DNA of 64,000 nucleotides from Kutzneria sp. 744 (GTDB lineage Bacteria > Actinomycetota > Actinomycetes > Mycobacteriales > Pseudonocardiaceae). Below the pieces are notes generated by a model that searched no databases, was not told where the DNA came from, and saw only the letters and a list, made by a program, of their open reading frames with translations. Shown in pieces: positions 8,454 through 63,801 of this stretch. Both the position numbers and the translations under genes were made by a program. The stretch lies in NCBI RefSeq assembly GCF_000568255.1, contig NZ_KK037166.1:9651547-9715546 (forward strand), written 5' to 3'. Positions within the stretch are counted from its first letter, which is position 1. Each line of letters starts with the position of its first letter.

Positions 8454-8577
8454 GGGCTGGCTTATCGCGGCTGCCGCCAGGACGTGACGTCAACTCGCCC
8501 GTTCGGCGCAAACCGGAGATTGTCAGACCTCTCCCGTAGGGTTCGTCCCAGTGCGGGCTCAGGAGGGGAAAACAAGG

Positions 8578-11500
8578 GTGGAGCTGGAAAACACGCTGGT
8601 CATCCCGGACCACGCGCGGCGGTATGTCCGGCTGCGGCGGGACCGGGAGCTGCTGCGGACGTTCGAAGTGGACCACGGGAAGGTCGAGCGGGGTCGGGCG
8701 GACCTGGCCACGTACCGGGCCGAGATCGTCGCAACGCTGGACCACGAGCTCACCGCGCCGGCGTTGGCCGAGGCCGGCCACGCCTATCTGGCCGGCGAGC
8801 GGAATCCCCAGGGGGCGGGGGCCGTGATGGCCGCCCGCAACGTGTGGCGGGCCGACGGGCACGACTGGATCGAGCAGCACGGGCCGGTGTTCGCCGCCGA
8901 GGCGCTGCTGGCCTACAGCCGCCTGGTGGCGTCCAACATAGCCGCGGGCCAGTACGAGTCCCGGCACCATCTGCGGGAACGGGTGCTCCCGGACGACAAC
9001 CTGGAGTGGACCTGGCGGGCCGGCGGGGCCGCCGAGGCCGTGCGGGACGCGTTGGCCTGCGCCGACGACGCCGAGTACGCGGCGGCGATCGCGCTGCTGG
9101 CCCAGCACCGGCACGACGAGCTCGGCCGGCTGCTCGCGGCGTTCCTCGTGCCGAACGAGACGGCCTGGGTGGACGACCTGATCGCCCATCGGGACCAGCA
9201 CGGGCCGGCGCGTGCCCTGTCCGAACTGACCATCGGCGTGCCCGGCACTCCTCAGCAGTGGCGGGCCCTTGGCGTGTCGCTGTGGGCCCTGGATACCCAC
9301 GTCTACACGCTGGTGCACACCCTCGGCCCCGACGCCGCCCCGCTGCTCGCGTCCACACTGGACGGTGACGCGGCCGGTGGCGACACCCGAAAGCAGCTGG
9401 TCGCGGCGCTGGCGTTGCTGCCGACCGATGAGGCGTTCGGAATGCTGCTGTCCCGGGCCGGGCAGAAGCACGTCCAGGGCGGCCTGATCGCCGCGATGCG
9501 GCGGTTCCCGCACCGCGCCGTGCGCATGCTGGCCGTCGCGGCCGGCCGGGACAAGACGGCGCAGCGGCTGCTTTTCGGCCTACTGCAAGCGGATCCGGAC
9601 CTCGTGAACGAGTCGTGGTCGGAGAGCGTGCGAGCCGGGCTGGACGGAGTGCTCGCCGCCATGGAACGTGTGCCGGAGGCGGAAGCCGACAAGCTGCCGC
9701 CGCTGCTGGTCAGTCCACCGTGGACGGTGAAGCGGGCCAAGGGCAGGTCGACCCCGCCGGCCGGGATCGAAGCGCCGACGGGGACCGTCGTCAGCTGGCT
9801 GCCGGGTGAACGCGAGCAGTGGGCGGAGATCCGCGCCGGCTACGGCTCCACGCCGGAGGAGCGGCGCGGCTACCTGCTCAAGCAGATGCCGGTCCTGCCG
9901 GGCAAGGAGCCGGACTGGCAGCACGCCGCCGACCTGATGCGGGACCACCGGGCCAAGCCCGACGTCTCCGCGGGCCTGCTCCTGCTCGGGCCGGAGGACC
10001 TCGCCCGTCCGTTGCTCGACGGCCGGTGCAAGCTGCCGCGGCAGGAAGCCCTGTACCTGGAGCACATCCTGGCCCGGTTCGAGGCCGACGCGGTGCCGAT
10101 GACGCTGACCTGGGTGCAGCAGTCCATGCCCGCCTACGGCCATCTGCTGCTGCCGGTCGTCAACGCGGACATCACGCGGGTCATGGCCAACGCCTACTCG
10201 AAGCTGAAGAGCATGCGGGACCTGGCCGCCGGCTGGTTCGCCCGCCACGGCACGGTTGTCGTCCCGTACCTGCTGCCGGCGGTGTTCTACGGGACCGCCG
10301 CGGAGCGCAAGATCGCGGAGGCGGCGCTGCGGCTGATGGCCACGCAGACCTCCCCCGACGCTGTGCTGGCCGAGGTCGAGCGGTTCGGGCCGGAGGCGCG
10401 CGCGGCGGTGGAAGCGTTGGTCGGCACCGACCCGTTCCAGCAGCTGCCGGCCAAGATGCCGGCGATCGGCGACTGGGCCGACGTCGACCTGCTGCCGCAG
10501 ATCCGACTGCGCGGCGGCGACGGCCTGCCGCGCGAGGCCACCCGGCACCTGCTGACCATGCTGGCCATCTCCCGTGTCGACGAGCCGTACGCGGGCGTGG
10601 CCGTGGTGCGGGAGCTCTGCGACCCGAAGTCGCTGGCCGAATTCGCCTGGGCGCTGTTCGAGGAGTGGCGTGCGGGCGGCGAGGTCACCAAGGACAACTG
10701 GGCGCTGACCGCGGTCGGCCTGCTCGGTGACGACGACTGCGTGCGGCGGCTGGCCCCGATCATCCGGGCCTGGCCGGGCGAAGGCGGCCATGCCAAGGCC
10801 GTGTCCGGGCTGGACGTGCTGGCCGCGATCGGCACCGACGTGGCGTTGATGCACCTCAGCTCCATCGCGCAGAAGGTGAAGTTCAAGGCGCTCAAGCAGC
10901 GGGCCCAGGAGAAGATCGCCGCCGTCGCCGAGGGGATCGGGCTGACCGCCGACCAGTTGGCCGACCGGCTCGTGCCCACCTTCGGCCTGGACGACGCGGC
11001 CACGCTGCGCGTCGACTACGGCTCGCGGTCCTTCACCGTGGGCTTCGACGAGCAGCTCAAGCCGTACGTGATCGACGGGGACGGCAAGCGCCGCAAGGAC
11101 CTGCCCAAGCCCGCGGGCAAGGACGACGCCGAGCTGGCGCCGGCCGAGCACGCGAGGTTCGCCGCGCTGCGCAAGGACGTCCGCACGGTGGCGGCCGACC
11201 AGATCCTGCGGCTGGAGAACGCCATGGTCCACCAGCGCGACTGGTCGGCCGAGGAGTTCACCACCCTGCTGGCCGGGCATCCGCTGCTGTGGCACATCGT
11301 GCGGCGGCTGGTGTGGATCGACGACGCCGGCACGGGGTTCCGGCTGGCCGAGGACCGCACGCTGGCCGACGTCGACGACAACACCTTCGAGCTGCGCCCG
11401 GACGCCCGGGTCCGGCTCGCCCACCCGCTGACCCTCGGCGACGCCGTGACCGCCTGGTCCGAGGTGCTGGCCGACTACGAGATCCTCCAGCCGTTCCCGC

Positions 11501-11883
11501 AGCTCGGGCGGCCCACGTTCACGCTGACCGACGAGGAGCGGGCGGCGACCTGGCTGCACCGGTTCGAGGGCGTCAAGGTGCCGGTCGGCAAGCTGCTGGG
11601 GCTGACCAAGCGGTCCTGGCAGCGGACGCCGCCGCAGGACAACGGCTGCGAGTGGACCATCGTGCGACCCTCGCCCGGGGTCACGGCGGTGCTGCCCCTC
11701 GATCCCGGCATCACCGTAGGCATGATCGACATGGACCCGGAGCAGGTCCTGGGCGCGATCAAGTTGGACGTCGAGGGCGGCGACGGCTGGTGGAACCACC
11801 AGGCGCCGCTGCGCCCGTTCGGCGAGCTGGACCCGATCACGGCCTCCGAGCTGCTGGCCGAGCTGACCGCGCTGACGAGCTGA
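8578..11883 (+). CDS. DUF4132 domain protein (YehI/MolR-like)
   Basis: 1101-residue helical-repeat protein. The last roughly 200 residues, including TFTLTDEERAATWLHRFEG, match the DUF4132 domain of E. coli YehI (formerly MolR). The long N-terminal part consists of Ala/Leu-rich helical, HEAT-like repeats (for example AALALLPTDEAFGMLLSRAG). The GTG at 8578 was chosen because AGGAGGGG lies at 8561-8568. GTG at 8551 is an alternative. No catalytic motif is recognised. It opens a five-gene operon with MoxR ATPase, DUF5682, VWA and SWIM genes, the same combination as the E. coli yehI-L-M-P-Q region. It may be the large scaffold or substrate-binding component of a MoxR/VWA machine. Confidence 0.8.
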   Translation: MELENTLVIPDHARRYVRLRRDRELLRTFEVDHGKVERGRADLATYRAEIVATLDHELTAPALAEAGHAYLAGERNPQGAGAVMAARNVWRADGHDWIEQHGPVFAAEALLAYSRLVASNIAAGQYESRHHLRERVLPDDNLEWTWRAGGAAEAVRDALACADDAEYAAAIALLAQHRHDELGRLLAAFLVPNETAWVDDLIAHRDQHGPARALSELTIGVPGTPQQWRALGVSLWALDTHVYTLVHTLGPDAAPLLASTLDGDAAGGDTRKQLVAALALLPTDEAFGMLLSRAGQKHVQGGLIAAMRRFPHRAVRMLAVAAGRDKTAQRLLFGLLQADPDLVNESWSESVRAGLDGVLAAMERVPEAEADKLPPLLVSPPWTVKRAKGRSTPPAGIEAPTGTVVSWLPGEREQWAEIRAGYGSTPEERRGYLLKQMPVLPGKEPDWQHAADLMRDHRAKPDVSAGLLLLGPEDLARPLLDGRCKLPRQEALYLEHILARFEADAVPMTLTWVQQSMPAYGHLLLPVVNADITRVMANAYSKLKSMRDLAAGWFARHGTVVVPYLLPAVFYGTAAERKIAEAALRLMATQTSPDAVLAEVERFGPEARAAVEALVGTDPFQQLPAKMPAIGDWADVDLLPQIRLRGGDGLPREATRHLLTMLAISRVDEPYAGVAVVRELCDPKSLAEFAWALFEEWRAGGEVTKDNWALTAVGLLGDDDCVRRLAPIIRAWPGEGGHAKAVSGLDVLAAIGTDVALMHLSSIAQKVKFKALKQRAQEKIAAVAEGIGLTADQLADRLVPTFGLDDAATLRVDYGSRSFTVGFDEQLKPYVIDGDGKRRKDLPKPAGKDDAELAPAEHARFAALRKDVRTVAADQILRLENAMVHQRDWSAEEFTTLLAGHPLLWHIVRRLVWIDDAGTGFRLAEDRTLADVDDNTFELRPDARVRLAHPLTLGDAVTAWSEVLADYEILQPFPQLGRPTFTLTDEERAATWLHRFEGVKVPVGKLLGLTKRSWQRTPPQDNGCEWTIVRPSPGVTAVLPLDPGITVGMIDMDPEQVLGAIKLDVEGGDGWWNHQAPLRPFGELDPITASELLAELTALTS

Positions 11884-11890
11884 GGCGACG

Positions 11891-12952
11891 ATGAACCTGC
11901 AACGGCCTCCCACCGAGATCCGCTACGCCGACGAGCTGGCCACGCTCCGGGCCACGGACACCGATCCCCGTCCACCGGGCTGGGCGCTGAGCCTGGCCGC
12001 GGCCCGGCGCTTCATCGTGGGGGACAACGGGATCAGCCGGAAGTTCGTCGGCGATCCGTCCCTGGTCGACCGGGCGCTGGTCACGCTGGCCACCAGCCGC
12101 GGCCTGATGCTGGTCGGCGAGCCCGGCACGGCCAAGTCCCTGCTGTCCGAGCTGATCGCGGCGGCGGTGTCCGGCGAGTCCACGCTGACCGTGCAGGGCG
12201 GGGCGGCGACCACCGAGGACCAGATCAAGTACTCCTGGAACTACGCCCTGCTGGTGGCCGAGGGGCCGACACCGCGGTCGCTGGTGCCGGCGCCGATGCT
12301 GCGGGGCATGGCCGAGGGCAAGCTGGTGCGGTTCGAGGAGATCACCCGCTGCCCGCTGGAGGTCCAGGACTGCATGCTGTCGCTGCTGTCCGAGCGGGTG
12401 CTGGCCATTCCCGAGCTGACCGGCGCCGACGGCATGGTGTTCGCGCAGGCTGGTTTCAACGTGATCGCCACCGCCAACACGCGAGACCGCGGCGTGAACG
12501 AGATGAGCGCGGCCCTGAAACGCCGCTTCAACTTCGAGACGGTGTTCCCCATCCCCGACTTCGACACCGAGCTGGGCCTGGTGGAGCAGGAGGCGGCCCG
12601 GCTGCTGGAGCAGTCCGGGGTCGAGATCGCGCCGCGGCGGGACGTGCTGGAGGTGCTGGTCACCGCGTTCCGGGAGCTGCGCGGCGACGGCGGCCAGGTC
12701 GACCGCCTGTCCACGGTGATGAGCACGGCCGAGGCGGTGTCGGTGGCGCACGCGGTCGGGCTGCGTGGCTGGTACCTGCGCGGGGAGGCTGGGACGGCGG
12801 CGGACATCGTGGAGTGCCTGGCCGGCACGGCGGCCAAGGACAACGCCGACGACCTGGCCCGGCTGCGGCGCTACCTGGAGCAGCAGGCCCCGCGCCGGCA
12901 CGGTCAGCAGTGGCAGGCCCTGCACGCGGCCCGACACCTGCTGCCCGGCTGA
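11891..12952 (+). CDS. MoxR-family AAA+ ATPase (YehL-like)
   Basis: 353-residue AAA+ ATPase. Visible motifs are Walker A GEPGTAKS (76-83), Walker B VRFEEITR (about 145) and the sensor-1 segment IATANTRDRGVNEMS, with ALKRRFNFE as the arginine-finger region. MoxR ATPases remodel or assemble partner proteins and usually act with VWA-domain proteins. A VWA gene follows two genes downstream. It begins 7 bp after the DUF4132 stop, and its TGA overlaps the next ATG (TGATG). The neighbourhood assigns it to the YehL branch of MoxR proteins. Confidence 0.9.
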   Translation: MNLQRPPTEIRYADELATLRATDTDPRPPGWALSLAAARRFIVGDNGISRKFVGDPSLVDRALVTLATSRGLMLVGEPGTAKSLLSELIAAAVSGESTLTVQGGAATTEDQIKYSWNYALLVAEGPTPRSLVPAPMLRGMAEGKLVRFEEITRCPLEVQDCMLSLLSERVLAIPELTGADGMVFAQAGFNVIATANTRDRGVNEMSAALKRRFNFETVFPIPDFDTELGLVEQEAARLLEQSGVEIAPRRDVLEVLVTAFRELRGDGGQVDRLSTVMSTAEAVSVAHAVGLRGWYLRGEAGTAADIVECLAGTAAKDNADDLARLRRYLEQQAPRRHGQQWQALHAARHLLPG

Positions 12953-15167
12953 TGGCCGTCACGTACATCGGGGTCCGTCACCACAGTCCGGCGTGCAGCC
13001 GGCTGGTCGCCGCCAACCATCGAGGCGGTCCGGCCGGCGCACGTGCTGATCGAGGGGCCGTCCGACCTGAATCCGCGCCTCGACGAGCTGCTGCTCGGCC
13101 ACGAGCTGCCGATCGCCGTCTACACCTACTACCGGGACGACCAGCGCGTGCACGGCTCGTGGACGCCGTTCTGCGACTACTCGCCGGAGTGGGTGGCGTT
13201 GACGGTCGGCCGGGACCACGGCGCCCCAGGTGCGGTTCATCGACCTGCCGGCGTGGCATCCGGCCTTCGCCTCGCGCAGCAACCGGTACGCCGACGCCGA
13301 TCACCGGTACGAGGCCGTGACCGAGCGGCTGTGCCGGGACTTCGCCGTCGACAACGCCGACACGCTGTGGGATCACCTGGTCGAGGCGGTGCCGGACGAC
13401 GGCCTGGCCGAGCGGCTGACCACGTACTTCGATGTGGTGCGAGGGGAATCGCCGGCCGGTGAGGACGATCAGGCGCGCGAGGAGTACATGGCCTCGTGGG
13501 TGCGGGCGGCGGCCGCCGAGGGTGACGTTGTTGTTGTCACGGGCGGATTTCACACGCCGGCGATCCGCGCGCTGGCCGTCGGCGTGGGGGAGTGGCCCGA
13601 GGTGCCGGAGCCGCCGCCGGATGCGGTCGGCGACAGCTATCTCGTGCCGTACTCGCACAAACGGCTGGATTCGTTCACCGGCTACCAGTCGGGAATGCCG
13701 TCGCCGGAGTACTACCAGCGGCTGTGGACCGACGGCGTTGCCGGCGCGGCGGATGCCATGGTGGAGGCAGTGGTGGCCCGGCTGCGGGGGCGCAAACAGC
13801 CGGTGTCGACCGCCGACCTGATCGCCGCGCGCACGTTGACGACCGGCCTCGCCCGGCTCCGTGGGCACGAATTCCCTTCGCGCACCGACGTTCTGGACGG
13901 CCTGGTCAGCGCGTTGGTGCACGACGACCTGCCACAGCCGCCGCCGTGGAGCCGGCGCGGGCCGATCGCCGTCGGCACGCATCCCGCCGTCGTGGAGATG
14001 GTGGCGGCGTTCAGCGGCGACCGCGTCGGCCGGCTGCACGAGGCGACGCCGCTGCCGCCGCTGGTCGTGGCCGTGGCCGGCGATCTGGAGCGGCTGAAGC
14101 TGGATCACGAGGGCGGCGTCGGCCTGGACCTGACGGTGCCGCTGGATCTGGAGCGGAGCCGGACCCTGCACCGGCTGCGGGTGCTCGGCGTGCCCGGGTT
14201 CGAGCGGCTGTCCGGGCCGTCGGGCGGGGCCGATCCGGTGCTGGACGAGCGGTGGCAGCTCACGCCGTCCGACCACCGGCTGCCGGCGTTGATCGAGGCC
14301 GGCGCCTACGGCGCGACGCTGCCGGACAGCGCCGCCGCGGCCATGCGGGAGCGGATACCCGGTGCCGGTATCGCGGACCTGGCCTCGCTGCTGTTCGACG
14401 GGGCCCTGTGCGGGATCGACTCGTGGACGCCGGAGATCGCGTCCTCGCTGGCCGCCGGCATCGCCCGGGCCGGTGAGCTGGACGCCCTCGGGCAGGTGTT
14501 GGCCACCGTGCTGGGTTTGTGGCGGCACGACCGCCTTTTCGGCACCGCCGGCAGCCCCGTCTTCGCCCCGATGATCGTCACCGCCGTCCAGCGGTCACTG
14601 TGGATCATGGAGGGCATTCGCGGCGGCCCCGCCCCGGCCGAGCCACGGCGGCTCCGCGCCGTCGCCGCGTGCCGGGATGCCGTCCTGCACGCCGGTCCCG
14701 CCCTCGGCCTCGACCGCCCGTCCGCCTTGGCCGTCGCCGCCCGCGTGGCCGCCAACGCCGATGCGCCGCCCGATCTTCGCGGCGCCGCCTGCGGCTTCGG
14801 CTGGTCCCTCGGCGACGACGTCGACGCCGCCCGGGCCGTTGCCGGCGTCTCCACCCCTCGCACCCTCGGCGACTGGCTGGCCGGGCTCTTTGCCGTCGCC
14901 CGCGACCGCGTGCTGTCCGAGGAGCGGATCGTCACCGTGCTCGACGACATCGTCAGCACCATGACCGAGGAGGACTTCCTGATCGCGCTTCCCGCCCTGC
15001 GTCAGGGTTTCTCCTTCTTCCCGCCGTCCGAACGCGAGACCATCGCCCGCATGCTCGGCGGGTCGCGCGCGTTGCTGCGGGCCGACGTCGATCCGCTGAT
15101 CGTGGCCAGGGCGATGGCCCTGGAGACCACCGTGGACAGTGTCCTGGCCGAACTGGGGTTGCTGTGA
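12952..15167 (+). pseudogene. DUF5682 protein (YehM-like), two frameshifts
   Basis: About 737 residues if repaired. The start MAVTYIGVRHHSPACSRLV and the later GHELPIAVYTYYRDDQ and VRFIDLPAWHPAF blocks are typical of DUF5682 proteins encoded beside MoxR and VWA genes. The frame is lost twice by apparent single-base insertions. One lies in CCAACCATCGAG near 13015-13018, where the extra base is A or C. The other lies in a CCCC run at 13224-13227, where CCC would restore the frame. All other codons look intact to the normal stop, so sequencing error is at least as likely as real inactivation. The function is unknown. Its stop overlaps the start of a 77-bp repeat micro-ORF (GTGA). Confidence 0.75.
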
Positions 15168-15317
15168 CCGAGCTTGCGAGGGCACCATTCTCTACAGAGA
15201 CCCGGGTCGCAGACCCGCCGAGCGCTGGCGAGGCGGGACTGTGACCGAGCTTGCGAGGGCACCATTCTATGCAGAGACCCGGGTCGCAGACCCGCCGAGC
15301 GCTGGCGAGGCGGGACT
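15164..15317 (+). repeat. Two tandem 77-bp repeats, each a coupled 26-codon micro-ORF
   Basis: The copies span 15164-15240 and 15241-15317 and differ at two bases. Each begins GTGACCGAGCTTGCGAGG and reads as a 26-codon ORF (VTELARAPF..., ending SAGEAGL). Its TGA falls inside the GTGA that opens the next unit. DUF5682, copy 1, copy 2 and the VWA gene are therefore chained by three 4-bp GTGA overlaps. Each unit ends with GAGGCGGGACT, which supplies a ribosome-binding site for the following GTG. An internal CCCGCC...GGCGGG pair could form a hairpin. The two differences change Ser-Thr to Tyr-Ala in the peptide. It may be a dispersed element inserted at a stop/start junction or a real small peptide. 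Confidence 0.85.
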
Positions 15318-16460
15318 GTGACCGATCTGGAGCGATGGCGGCTCATCCTCGGCGAGCCGGCCGAGCGGCACTGCGGCGGCCTGTCCGGCAACTCCGGCGA
15401 CGGCGCCGGCGGCGCCGGTGGTCGCGGCGGCAACGCCGGCCGTGACGCGGCGCTGGAATGGCTCTACGGCAGGGATCCCGAGCTCCGGCGCCAAGGCGTG
15501 CGGACCGGGGGCCAGGGCGAATCGGTGCTGCGGACCGTGGACTGGCTCGACGACATCCACCGGCTGTTCCCCAAGGACACCATCGAGCGGCTGGAACGGG
15601 ACGCGGTCGAGCGGTACGGGATCACCGACGTGGTCACCGATCCCGCTGTGCTGTCACGGATCGAGCCCAACGCCGCCCTGCTGCGGGCGGTGCTGCGGAC
15701 CAAGCACCTGATGAACCCCGAGGTGCTGCTGATGGCCCGGCGGATCGTCGCGGCCGTGGTCGAGGAGCTCATGCGCCGGCTGGCCCGTGAGGTCCAGCAG
15801 CCCTTCACCGGCACCCGCAACCGGCGGCCCAGCAACGTCAAGAACTCCCGCAACTTCGACTTCCGCGCCACCATCCGGGCCAATCTCGCGCACTACCAGC
15901 CCGAGCACCGGCGCGTGCTGATCGAGCGGCCCCGGTTCGTCAGCCGCACCCGCCGGCACGTCGACCAGTGGCAGCTCGTGCTCATCGTCGACCAGTCCGG
16001 CTCGATGGTCGACTCGGTGATCCACTCCGCGGTCACCGCCGCCTGCCTCTGGGGCCTGCCTGGCCTGCGCACGCACCTCATCGCCTTCGACACCAACGTC
16101 GTCGACCTCACCTCGGACGTCGTCGACCCGGTCGAGCTGCTGATGAAGGTTCAGCTCGGCGGCGGCACCGACATCGCCCGCGCCGTCGCGTACGGGGCCG
16201 GCCTCATCGACAACCCCCGCCGCGCCATCCTCGCCGTCATCACCGACTTCTACGAGGGCGGCAGCCCGTACCACCTGATCCAGACCGTGCGCGGCCTGGT
16301 CGAGCAGGGCACCCACGTCCTCGGCCTGGCGGCGCTGGACGAGGACGCCAATCCCAGCTATGACCGCGATCTGGCCCAGCGCCTCGCCGACGTCGGCGCC
16401 CATGTCGGCGCGATGACGCCGGGGGAGCTGGCCGAGTTCGTGGCGGAGAAGGTCGGATGA
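15318..16460 (+). CDS. VWA domain protein (YehP-like)
   Basis: 380 residues. After a Gly-rich stretch (about 25-45) and a helical N-terminal half, a von Willebrand A domain starts near residue 220. Its MIDAS metal site is complete: DQSGSM, the Thr in GGGTDIARA, and the Asp in AVITDFYEGG. Such proteins bind partners through a divalent metal and work with MoxR ATPases. The GTG at 15318 matches the coupled stop of the preceding repeat ORF. The in-frame upstream codons are only repeat sequence. Its stop overlaps the start of the SWIM gene (ATGAG). Confidence 0.9.
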   Translation: MTDLERWRLILGEPAERHCGGLSGNSGDGAGGAGGRGGNAGRDAALEWLYGRDPELRRQGVRTGGQGESVLRTVDWLDDIHRLFPKDTIERLERDAVERYGITDVVTDPAVLSRIEPNAALLRAVLRTKHLMNPEVLLMARRIVAAVVEELMRRLAREVQQPFTGTRNRRPSNVKNSRNFDFRATIRANLAHYQPEHRRVLIERPRFVSRTRRHVDQWQLVLIVDQSGSMVDSVIHSAVTAACLWGLPGLRTHLIAFDTNVVDLTSDVVDPVELLMKVQLGGGTDIARAVAYGAGLIDNPRRAILAVITDFYEGGSPYHLIQTVRGLVEQGTHVLGLAALDEDANPSYDRDLAQRLADVGAHVGAMTPGELAEFVAEKVG

Positions 16461-18279
16461 GCCGCGCGGATCTCCTTGCCCTCACTGAGGAATCCCTCAT
16501 CGCCCTGGCCAACCGCGGCCTGGTCAAACGGGCGGCCAAGGAAACCGGCGTGGTCATCGAGACCGATGCCGACGGCACTGTGCGGGCGCAGTTCGCCGAT
16601 GGCGTCTCGGCCGTGCTGCCGCCCGGCGTCGGGTTGGAGGCGGCCACCTGTTCCTGTGGCGCGCCCGGTGTTTGCCGGCACCGGATCGCGGTTGTGCTGG
16701 CGTACCAAAGGGATCACGGCGCAACGGCTGCGGCTTTCGAACCGTGGTCGCCGGGGGAGCTGAGCGACGAGCTGCTGACCGCCGAGTTCGACGAACGGAC
16801 GATGGCGGCGGCCAGGAAGACCCATCGGTCGGGGTATCCGGTGCGGCTGCGGCGGCCGACCGCCGGGGATCCGGTGGCCAGCGCGGAACTGCCGCTGTGC
16901 ACGGTCCGGTTTCCTGATGCTGGGAAGCTCGGCTATGTCACCCGACGTCACGGCGGCCCAAGCGGGACGAGTTCGTGGTGTTGGCGGTGTGGGCGTTCCG
17001 CGAGGCCGACGAACGCGGGGAGCTGGCCTTCGAGGCTGGGGGTGGGGGAGACCGCGAGGGCTTCGCTGAGGCGGTGGCGCTCGTGGATCAGCTGCTCCTG
17101 GACGGGGCGGTCAACGCCAGCCCAGTACAAGAGGCGGGCCTACGGCGTGCGCAAAGGGAGCTGGCGGACCGGAATCTGCACTGGCCGGCGGCCGCGATGG
17201 CGGAGCTGGTGGATCAGCTCGGGGCGTACCGCGGCCGAAACGCGGAGTACGAGACGCGGCGGTTCGCGGCGTTGATCAGCGAGCTGCACGCCCGGCACCG
17301 GTCGACCGGCCCGAAGTCGCAGGTCCTGGGCAGCGACGAGAAGGCCGAGACGCAGCTGAAGCGGGTGCGGCTGACGGCGCTGGGCTGCCGAGTGGTGGAC
17401 GAGCACACCGCAGAGGTCTACTTCGCCGGCCAGACCACGGTTTTTGTACTCCGGCACCGTTCGGAGAAGATCGACGCCGCCCGCCGCGTCGCCGGCAGCA
17501 CCCTGGGGCGGCTGGCCGTGGGCAACGTGGTGTCGGAGTCGGCCGTGCGCAGTGCGAGCCGGGTCGTGCGGCTGACGACGAGCCGGGTGTCCAAGACCTC
17601 GGTCACGGCGGTGGGGGAGGCCTGGACGGAGCTGCCGGACACCGTCCTTGCCGGGGATTTCGCCGCGCTGGAAAGGGAATTGGCCGCGCTGCCGCCGGCC
17701 TTCGTGCGGGCCCGGGTCGAGGCCGAGCTGGTCCGGGTCCTCCCGATCGCCGAGGTCCTGGGCGTCGGCTACGACCCCGGCTCGCAACGCCTCGACGCCG
17801 TGATCGCCGACGCCAACGGCACCACCGCCACCGTCTCCGCCCGGTACAGCCGCTTCCGCCCGGCCGCCCTCGACGCCCTGGCCCAGGCCTTGGCCGCCGA
17901 CCCCCGGATGATCAGCGGCGCGGTCCGACGCGTCAACGGCGCCGTGGTGCTGGACCCCTACGCCGTGCTGACGCCCGACGGCGTCGTCGTGCCGGACCTC
18001 GCCGACGGGGAGCCCGCCGCGCTCGCCGCCATGGCGTGGGCGGAGCCGGACCCCGTGTCCCATGCCGTCGCCACCGCGCTGGAGGTCGCCGCCGAGGCCG
18101 CGCACCGGGGCCTCGGCCACCTCACCGACGGCGTCCGCCGCCGGCTCGACCACGCCGCCGCCACCCTGCGCAGGGTCGGCTTGACCCGGACCGGTGACCT
18201 GCTGTCCGAGGCCCACACCCCGGCTTCCTGGCACGCTGCGCACATTCGCCTGCTCGTGCTGGCCGAGCGGAGCGGCTAG
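16457..18279 (+). pseudogene. SWIM zinc-finger protein (YehQ-like), one frameshift
   Basis: About 607 residues if repaired. The SWIM zinc site Cys-x-Cys...Cys-x-His is complete in CSCGAPGVCRH (Cys65, Cys67, Cys73, His75). SWIM fingers bind nucleic acid or protein. The frame breaks between about 16940 and 16975. The first frame ends its sense reading at LGYVTRRHGG, and the rest continues in another frame from FVVLAVWAFREADERGE to the end. A small net indel explains this, so it could be a sequencing error. It ends the DUF4132-MoxR-DUF5682-VWA-SWIM operon and shares a CTAG with the stop of the convergent DUF1905 gene. Confidence 0.8.
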
Positions 18280-62409: not shown

Positions 62410-63801
62410 ATGAGCGGATCCAGACGACTGTCGAGATGGGTGCGGGCGGCCGGGATGGCGGTGGCCGTCGTCCTCGGCGCGACCGGTATCGCCGCGCTGC
62501 CGGCCCAGGCGGCGACCACCACCGACGTGGTCAACCTGGCGCTGGCCAACGTGGGCGGCATGGCCTGTGGCACCAACAGCGCGGCGGCCACGGCTTCTAC
62601 GGCAGCTGCACCCGGCAACGGCGGCCAGCCCGAGTACTGGTGCGCCGACTTCGTGAAGTGGTTGTGGGCCAACAGCGGCGTCGCCGACCTCAACGGCCTG
62701 ACCGCCGCCGCCCGCAGCTTCTACGTGTACGGCGCGAACCGCGGCATCCTGTCCGGCACGCCGACGGTCGGCGCGGCGGTGGTGTTCTCCAACAACCGCG
62801 GGGACACCAGCGCCGGTGGTGGCGGCATCCACCACGTCGCCGTGGTCAGCAAGGTCAACGGCGACGGCACCATCGAGACGATCAGCGGCGACTGGGGCGG
62901 CCAGTCCGGCACCGAGGCGCACTTCGCCAGCACCTCGCACGTCATCCACAACACGCCGGCCTTCGCCGGCGGCGTCGGCTCGTACTCGTCGACGATGAAG
63001 ATGTACGTGGAGGGCTACATCCCGCCGCCCGGCGTCGGCACCGGCTCCACCCGCTCCGCCTTCTCCGAGGGGCGCGGGATCCTGTACTACCCGCAGGGCG
63101 ACGGTCGTCTGCTGTGGTACGACCACACCGGTTATCTGAGTGGTACTCAGGATTGGACCGGCAACTCCGGGACTCAGGTGAGCCAGGGCTGGAACGAGTA
63201 CAGCACGGTCTTCTCGGGTGGCAACGGGGTCGTCTACGGGATCAGCCCGAACGGTGATCTCCACTGGTACAAGAACACCGGCTACCTGTCCGGCACGACC
63301 GACTGGGCGGCCAACTCCGGCGTGGTGGTCAGCCACGGCTGGAACGAGTTCCGCGAGGTGTTCGCCGAGGGCGACGGCATCCTGTACGGCATCACCCAGG
63401 ACGGCCGGATGATCTGGTACCACCACACCGGCTACCTGACCGGAACCGCCGACTGGACAAGCAATTCCGGCGCCCAGGTGAGCCAGGGCTGGGACGAGTT
63501 CAGCCACGTCGTCGGCGGCAGCGACGGCATCATCTACGGCGTCGACGCCGACGGCCACCTGCTCTGGTACGACCATACCGGCTACAAGTCCGGCACGCCC
63601 GACTGGACCGCGAACTCGGCGGCGCAGGTCAGCCAGGGCTGGGACGCGTTCGCGCACATCTTCTCCGGCGGCAACGGAATTCTCTACGCGGTCAGCCAGA
63701 ACGGCGACCTGCACTGGTACGACCACACCGGCTACCACGCCGGCACCCCCGCCTGGACCGGCAACTCCAGCGCCTTGGTCAGCCACGGCTGGAACAACTG
63801 A
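62410..63801 (+). CDS. Secreted CHAP-domain peptidoglycan hydrolase fused to tachylectin-2-like propeller
   Basis: 463 residues. Signal peptide (to about ALPAQAA), then a CHAP/NlpC-like amidase domain with Cys78 in EYWCADFVKWLW and His in GGIHHVAVV. Residues of about 215-463 hold five similar ~47-residue units (LLWYDHTGYLSGTQDWTGNS, then QVSQGWNEF) forming a five-bladed tachylectin-2-like propeller that should bind GlcNAc/GalNAc sugars. It may bind cell walls or fungal surfaces and cut peptidoglycan. ATG at 62410 is preceded by GGGAGAGGGAG. A second tachylectin-like gene follows 13 bp later. Confidence 0.9.
   Translation: MSGSRRLSRWVRAAGMAVAVVLGATGIAALPAQAATTTDVVNLALANVGGMACGTNSAAATASTAAAPGNGGQPEYWCADFVKWLWANSGVADLNGLTAAARSFYVYGANRGILSGTPTVGAAVVFSNNRGDTSAGGGGIHHVAVVSKVNGDGTIETISGDWGGQSGTEAHFASTSHVIHNTPAFAGGVGSYSSTMKMYVEGYIPPPGVGTGSTRSAFSEGRGILYYPQGDGRLLWYDHTGYLSGTQDWTGNSGTQVSQGWNEYSTVFSGGNGVVYGISPNGDLHWYKNTGYLSGTTDWAANSGVVVSHGWNEFREVFAEGDGILYGITQDGRMIWYHHTGYLTGTADWTSNSGAQVSQGWDEFSHVVGGSDGIIYGVDADGHLLWYDHTGYKSGTPDWTANSAAQVSQGWDAFAHIFSGGNGILYAVSQNGDLHWYDHTGYHAGTPAWTGNSSALVSHGWNN

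Follow-up and report, generated by a model that had tools for sequence, protein, structure and literature searches.

Mycobacterial interspersed repetitive units (MIRUs) appear to be mobile, insert at start codons and contain an open reading frame (ORF) coupled at −4 nt; the available portion of PMC12548453, which cites Supply et al. 1997 on this point, also describes short ORFs that lie upstream of a coupled gene and supply it with ribosomes. MIRUs of 77 and 53 bp lie between senX3 and regX3, and those of the senX3-regX3 region are restricted to M. leprae and the M. tuberculosis complex (PMC4213456, available portion). IS608, as described in the accessible part of PMC5934647, inserts 3′ to a tetranucleotide that is kept in the left flank, and its guides GL and GR pair with the cleavage sites. 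In this study, we analyzed one 64,000-nucleotide stretch of the Kutzneria sp. 744 genome (contig NZ_KK037166.1, positions 9,651,547–9,715,546, forward strand; hereafter the window), in which two 77-bp units are located at the junction of a DUF5682 gene and a VWA gene. With good confidence, though on sequence comparison, we regard them as a tandem pair of a small non-autonomous mobile element of MIRU type, which would insert at start codons, carry guide hairpins and preserve the arrangement of coupled genes. Supply et al. 1997 reportedly used the term DTGA; how MIRUs move is, to our knowledge, still an open question.

In the window, the two units are detected as one tandem repeat at 15162–15325 (period 77, 2.1 copies, 97% matches; Tandem Repeats Finder), and they are identical at 75 of 77 positions; unit 2 is most likely the product of a tandem duplication. 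The stop codon TGA of the DUF5682 ORF is part of the left GTGA (15164–15167). Micro-ORF 1 starts with the GTG at 15164 and stops with the TGA at 15242–15244, within the following GTGA; micro-ORF 2 starts with the GTG at 15241 and stops with the TGA at 15319–15321, within the GTGA that starts the VWA gene. The first-pass annotation, which was made from the letters of this DNA, had described GTG-initiated copies of 26 codons, each stopping in the next GTGA, and this description is exact. It had also assigned to each copy its own ribosome-binding site. Each unit does contain one Shine-Dalgarno (SD)-like GAGG, 7 nt upstream of the next GTG, and this motif is a putative ribosome-binding site.

The 77-mer gave 50 matches at E ≤ 1 in its own genome, which contains 66 exact copies of the left-end motif DTGANCGAGCTTGCGAG and none of the reversed control pattern, so the family exceeds chance. 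At E ≤ 0.001, family matches were obtained in 8 of 41 genomes, including 6 of 7 Kutzneria genomes (own genome included) and 2 of 34 others; of the relatives, G001 was taken as K. buriramensis, G004 as K. viridogrisea and G006 as Kutzneria sp. CA-103260. One two-motif pattern identified at least 108 stretches across the named genomes, and the matches listed belong to Kutzneria, Pseudonocardia, Blastococcus, Geodermatophilus, Modestobacter, Nocardia, Sciscionella, Amycolatopsis, Saccharothrix and other genera. The distribution is patchy; the strict family pattern matched 1 of 396 genomes sampled from the phylum, which is the own genome, and none of the 9 genomes of one genus taken as Mycobacterium. 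Dispersed copies at unrelated loci are identical at up to 76 of 77 positions, which argues for recent movement. Taken together, these comparisons confirmed that the two units belong to a dispersed family of short, apparently mobile elements in actinobacteria. The first-pass annotation had suggested a coupling-preserving mobile repeat, a proposal that hinged on the repeat recurring elsewhere; copies were found at other GTGA and ATGA gene starts in the own genome and in relatives, and the empty orthologous sites and the unit lengths described below agree with it.

Some copies are of different form. L040, L044, L421 and L428 (own genome) and L288 (G006) represent one shorter variant, which shares the left end but differs at the right end, where a CCGACGAAGGAGG-type motif precedes GTGA. 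At L292 and L304 (G004) and at L422 and L050 (own genome), left ends without the standard right end seemingly enter coding sequence, as judged by eye, as if the elements had turned into new protein N-termini. We recovered 61 of the 66 left ends of the own genome, each with 150 bases; 15 of the 61 lack the standard right-end pattern and look like variants or decayed copies by eye. Among these 15, the L422 left end enters coding sequence, and that of L044 enters masked sequence. Left ends of the ATGA-type subfamily number 25 in G006, 12 in the own genome, 8 in G004 and 2 in each of G001 and G002, and none was found in G005.

The arrangement at gene starts was analyzed with 187 distinct units, of which 111 come from named-genome loci (Kutzneria contigs included), 74 from Kutzneria loci and 2 from elsewhere. 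The search pattern for this set fixes the right-end TGA and parts of both hairpin loops, the named-genome loci were pre-selected by the two-motif pattern, and loci L421–L431 are outside the set. The unit is 77 bp long in 151 of 187 cases, and its length is 2 mod 3 in 173, which is in line with the earlier remark that 26 codons minus one base suits such a chain. The micro-ORF stops at the right TGA in 168 units; the others have an internal stop (4), read past the TGA (6), show no stop within 600 bases (4) or have no start codon (5). Judged by codon-position GC, the frame of the downstream gene opens with the right DTGA in 138 of 149 units, and that of the upstream gene closes with the left TGA in 124 of 152 (98 of the 152 are also stop-free for 100 codons); owing to the units in which the upstream frame is not at the left TGA, a minority may sit at first genes instead of junctions. 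When all six frames are compared, the one that starts at the right DTGA scores best as coding sequence in 135 of 149 units, indicating insertion in the sense direction. Elements that land on start codons would presumably survive only if they pass ribosomes on.

The own locus is empty in G001, where the DUF5682 protein ends in GLL and its junction with the VWA gene is GTGA; it is also empty in another genus (G013), with ATGA at the junction. Orthologs in other Kutzneria genomes were sought for 19 further own loci and for 26 loci of the ATGA-type subfamily. For 41 filled loci, this gave 160 ortholog rows (three loci repeating a gene, L319, L322 and L325, are included; rows below 78% identity and same-genome rows were dropped); 123 rows were classed as empty, and DTGA is located exactly at the aligned start in 98 of them. 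One locus, L358 (G006:C1:159290–159709), has only what seem to be the last seven element bases before the start, perhaps a decayed or imprecisely lost copy.

The empty relatives also indicate which of the two junctions is old. At loci with A at the left and G at the right junction, they carry A in 38 rows and G in 11 rows; at loci with G at both junctions, they carry A in 8 rows and G in 33 rows (Fisher p 5e-8 between the two types). Counted by locus, the values are 14 A, 3 G and 1 tie for left-A loci, and 2 A, 11 G and 1 tie for left-G loci. This test comprises 93 rows from 33 loci. Beyond the rows dropped above, it excludes those that are filled or lack A/GTGA at the aligned start, as well as the L358 remnant and the three repeated loci; two rows counted as empty (L240 and L383; both G) that carry a diverged or variant element were kept. 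Since the empty relatives track the left base, the left DTGA is usually the original start and the right DTGA is element-borne; at loci with A at the left and G at the right junction, the host start codon has thus been rewritten from ATG to GTG. The left and right sides differ at base 5 in 16 rows; there, the relatives agree with the right side in 13 and with the left side in 3. The footprint can be read as target D, shared TGA, element, element R, shared TGA, and then host sequence starting with base 5. Such a footprint would result from insertion 3′ of DTGA without duplication; with exceptions, the loci display insertion next to one tetranucleotide that is retained at the left end, and no long duplication.

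Each unit can form two hairpins. In the left hairpin, the first six bases of the unit (DTGANC) face bases 17–22, the left guide; pairing is seen in 176 of 187 units at base 1 and in 174 at base 5 (permuted means 114 and 92, respectively), and none of 2000 permutations, which were made within three broad groups and not within a tree, was as high at either position. The right guide is a second 6-mer, located eight bases upstream of the CGAGCG motif in the right hairpin, and it lies opposite the right DTGANC. Among the 160 right ends next to a host gene, base 1 pairs with the right guide in 137 (permuted 101), base 5 in 122 (69) and base 6 in 115 (99), with 0 of 2000 permutations as high in each case; bases 5 and 6 of the right end belong to codon 2 of the host gene. 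When the two guides differ, the left junction follows the left guide in 43 of 47 units, versus 2 for the right guide.

Covariation was scored on one alignment, which holds 59 of the 89 diverse units listed. The score is 0.325, compared to 0.162 (standard deviation 0.009) after shuffling and at most 0.076 after sliding; 80.5% of the cells in the named pairs are paired, and the gaps are mainly at the middle two pairs of each helix. With the alignment as its only input, RNAalifold placed hairpins at columns 1–22 and 43–85, with double changes at 11 of 16 pairs. Over the 16 chosen pairs, 54 cells are G·T and 15 are A·C; this excess indicates that the sense strand is the folding strand. The right hairpins of the window are 42 nt each. 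Folding of the 77-mer alone is unremarkable (z −1.28), and the right hairpin emerges once the next DTGANC is included. Each right hairpin of the window encloses an SD-like GAGG together with the next start codon; for unit 2, this start is the GTGACC of VWA, and two bases of the second VWA codon lie within the hairpin. Such a fold would make de novo starts at the next gene unlikely.

The left guide was also compared with the target in element-free relatives. Loci whose left guide ends in T have A at the target in 14 cases and G in 3, whereas loci whose guide ends in C have A in 2 and G in 12 (p 2e-4; 2 tied loci omitted, and the left guide of the ATGA-type loci entered as a single 6-mer, in agreement with their matched letters). 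Guide base 2 is associated with target base 5 (p 0.003); C is present at 7 of 9 guide-G loci, and G at 16 of 21 guide-C loci. The guide therefore tracks the start codon of relatives that lack the element, a link that fitting after insertion alone would not predict.

Based on these observations, we propose the following mechanism. As the comparisons show, the element occupies DTGA gene starts in the sense direction; as a rule, the old DTGA has become the left junction, and the DTGA that now starts the host gene arrived with the element. The length of 77 (2 mod 3) and the open frame preserve the −4 overlap between stop and start. Covariation shows that two hairpins can form on the sense strand, each pairing one DTGANC with an internal 6-nt guide; while the element is single-stranded, the guide may pick the start codon via base pairing, and an enzyme supplied in trans would perform the joining. 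After insertion, the right hairpin may hide the SD-like sequence and the start of the next gene, until it is opened by one ribosome that translates the micro-ORF; at the own locus, this would tie VWA translation to that of DUF5682.

However, several observations weigh against this interpretation. The Y1 (IS200/RAYT) transposase family PF01797 was found at E ≤ 1e-5 in none of the 7 Kutzneria genomes (5 of all 41 genomes searched contain it), and the 150 bases at each of the 61 recovered left ends revealed no inserted gene and no longer, gene-carrying copy. Some loci do not follow the rules: L045, L296 and L320 are left-A loci with G in the relatives, L042 and L052 are left-G loci with A, and the base-5 rule fails at 2 of the 9 loci with guide G and at 5 of the 21 with guide C. 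The loci are not independent events, because the association between guide and target rests largely on two subfamilies. When bases 5 and 6 are considered jointly, the relatives match the right side in 13, the left side in 11 and neither side in 7 of 31 rows; because both junctions contain TGA, the footprint is explained just as well by a 3-bp duplication of TGA or by recombination at a TGA core. Left pairing positions 2–4 show no covariation beyond permutation in the 187 units, and in the 59-unit alignment the left helix lacks its third pair in 20 units and its fourth in 31, whereas the right helix lacks them in 38 and 19, respectively. At the 160 right ends, pairing with the left guide is likewise more frequent than under permutation (128 at base 1 and 122 at base 5), as most units have two similar guides; among the units with different guides, right base 1 matches the right guide in 23 of 43 and the left guide in 14, and right base 5 matches each of them in 17 of 41. 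In the window, the left hairpin alone is unstable (−3.3 kcal/mol, z 0.28).

The guides and the footprint may also be explained in other terms. Guide-directed single-strand transposition in trans, similar to that of IS200/IS605 elements, would insert the unit 3′ of DTGA, keep the left DTGA, carry the right one and use the guides to pair both; we consider it plausible, if somewhat short of probable. The footprint and the guide pairing match IS608 as presented in the accessible part of PMC5934647, and the folding strand, judged from the G·T and A·C cells, is the sense strand. However, PF01797 was detected in none of the 7 Kutzneria genomes, and the Y1 transposase was rejected as a candidate mobiliser; the left guide is 3′ of a small hairpin and not 5′ of a hairpin foot, complementarity extends over 6 nt rather than 4, and the left guide is more exclusive than the right one. 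Alternatively, the hairpins may serve the mRNA and not mobility, with start and SD sequence hidden for coupled ribosomes and selection after insertion keeping the guide complementary to the start. This is a serious candidate and falls only just below what we would call probable; it is supported by the stable right hairpin over the SD-like sequence and start, by the G·T excess and by pairing that reaches host codon 2 (the base-5 excess at the right ends), but selection after insertion would not by itself make the guide track the start codon of element-free relatives. The two explanations are compatible and can both be true.

Recombination of a circle at a short TGA core, catalyzed in trans by a site-specific recombinase or an IS110-type enzyme, is rather unlikely in our view. 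It would account for the order of target D, shared TGA, element R and host base 5 at the right (13 of 16 rows, versus 3), and IS110 transposases (PF01548) are present in 5 of 7 Kutzneria genomes; however, PF01548 was not found in G004 and G005, which both carry the element, no direct link connects the two, and IS110 was rejected as the mobiliser. The first-pass annotation had offered a duplicated short peptide as the other option, and this did not hold up: that a short gene was duplicated for its 26-residue product is very improbable. The frame is indeed open to the right TGA in most units, and entropy in the unpaired linker (17 columns) is slightly higher at third codon positions (1.04, 1.03 and 1.20 bits at positions 1, 2 and 3, respectively). 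Such a slight excess argues for a phase that is kept rather than a peptide; conservation tracks the hairpins, with the invariant positions located in their loops and stems, and the frame is kept across subfamilies despite their different sequences. An assembly artefact or purely local slippage might be suspected from the 97% identity of the two units, but it is scarcely credible, as the assembly is a single contig, filled and empty orthologs exist elsewhere, and dispersed copies already refute it for the family.

The features of the own locus are listed in Table 1. The junction belongs to one gene row (8551–17275) encoding DUF4132, MoxR-like AAA_5, DUF5682, VWA_CoxE and SWIM proteins, which resembles a MoxR-VWA type system. 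Near its N terminus, the VWA protein has one Gly-rich insert (15380–15440) that is missing from the G001 and G013 orthologs. A separate tandem repeat is present at 63109–63795 (period 150, 4.6 copies, 72% matches). Rfam search of 14000–16500 at E ≤ 1 gave mir-9168 as the sole match; with 23 bits against a cut-off of 100, it was taken as chance.

Table 1. Positions in the window of the two units, their predicted hairpins and the flanking genes
Feature	Position	Strand	Evidence
DUF5682 family protein gene, upstream	13230..15167	+	PF18934, E 1.5e-80
Unit 1 of the 77-bp element	15164..15240	+	
Unit 2 of the 77-bp element (75/77 as unit 1)	15241..15317	+	
Micro-ORF 1, 26 codons + stop, −4 overlap on both sides	15164..15244	+	sequence
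Micro-ORF 2, 26 codons + stop	15241..15321	+	sequence
SD-like GAGG preceding the micro-ORF 2 start	15230..15233	+	sequence; putative role
SD-like GAGG preceding the VWA start	15307..15310	+	sequence; putative role
Left hairpin of unit 1; GTGACC faces guide GGGCAC (15180-15185), one A.G mismatch	15164..15185	+	
Right hairpin of unit 1; guide GGTCGC (15205-15210) pairs with GTGACC (15241-15246)	15205..15246	+	-31.8 kcal/mol, z -5.83
Left hairpin of unit 2; guide 15257-15262	15241..15262	+	
Right hairpin of unit 2	15282..15323	+	-31.8 kcal/mol, z -5.83
VWA (CoxE-like) protein gene, downstream; start codon in right GTGA	15318..16460	+	PF05762, E 2.5e-55

A coupling-preserving mobile repeat is of a kind already known from mycobacteria. 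In the literature searched, which left most subscription papers outside, we found no description of the spread of this family over other actinobacteria, of a covarying pair of guide hairpins, of a link between guide and original start, or of start-codon rewriting. We infer both the coupling and the guided targeting from aligned sequences. The copies are young, many filled and empty sites can be paired, and the guide-target rule is concrete; therefore, the choice of target by base pairing is directly testable. The family would represent a mobile element that is suited to the reading phase of operons and alters host start codons, and it may shift the expression ratio of coupled genes, including one senX3-regX3-like pair in some Kutzneria. 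In a broader and more tentative view, 77-nt elements without a transposase would be widespread; they would be targeted by guides against DTGANN, rewrite ATG to GTG, enforce coupling through their hairpins and depend on one unrecognised enzyme in trans, with MIRUs as a parallel or distant lineage.

Like MIRUs, as far as the available portions of the cited papers describe them, the Kutzneria units are short, apparently mobile repeats at start codons, with an internal ORF that would be coupled to the next gene at −4 nt; the reported MIRU lengths of 77 and 53 bp are both 2 mod 3, as are those of most Kutzneria units. Many short copies are dispersed in one genome, as the 66 exact left ends and the empty control indicate, and the stop and frame counts (168/187, 138/149 and 124/152) reveal start-codon insertion with a −4 nt ORF as an arrangement. 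Different from this likeness in organization, the profile built from 59 units of the Kutzneria family matched none of 12 mycobacterial-type loci at E ≤ 10, whereas all 5 positive controls were matched. These 12 loci were drawn from genomes that match one putative mycobacterial core; within the order, this core is present in 16 of 397 genomes, which all belong to a single genus taken as Mycobacterium. Of 15 core occurrences in the 12 loci, 6 are bracketed by DTGA, and 5 of these 6 have a length of 2 mod 3. The Kutzneria family thus works like a MIRU, with no sequence similarity detected between the two.

One Kutzneria unit (L029 41–2258, own genome, within G000:C1:6449218–6452294) is located between SenX3-like and RegX3-like ORFs, which were named by eye; by eye, the SenX3-like ORF ends in the left GTGA and the RegX3-like ORF starts at the right GTGA. 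This junction is the one reported to contain 77-bp MIRUs in M. tuberculosis (PMC4213456, available portion). It is filled in 3 of 6 Kutzneria genomes (own genome, G001 and G004) and unfilled in G002, G005 and G006.

With IS200/IS605 elements such as IS608, and with repetitive extragenic palindromic (REP) sequences and TnpA_REP, the family shares the tetranucleotide kept at the left, the terminal hairpins on one strand and, as candidates, internal guides for both cleavage sites, as far as these are covered by the available portions of PMC5934647 and PMC6006769. Different from both, the Kutzneria units are 77 bp long, contain no gene beyond the micro-ORF and keep the reading phase. Guide pairing and covariation are strong, yet the arrangement is unlike that of IS608: the left end has another guide order, and the right guide is not as exclusive as the left. 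In addition, the seven Kutzneria genomes searched yielded no Y1 transposase. Finally, as in the short upstream ORFs described in the available portion of PMC12548453, the stop of the micro-ORF overlaps the next start; different from those ORFs, the Kutzneria micro-ORF is itself the mobile element.

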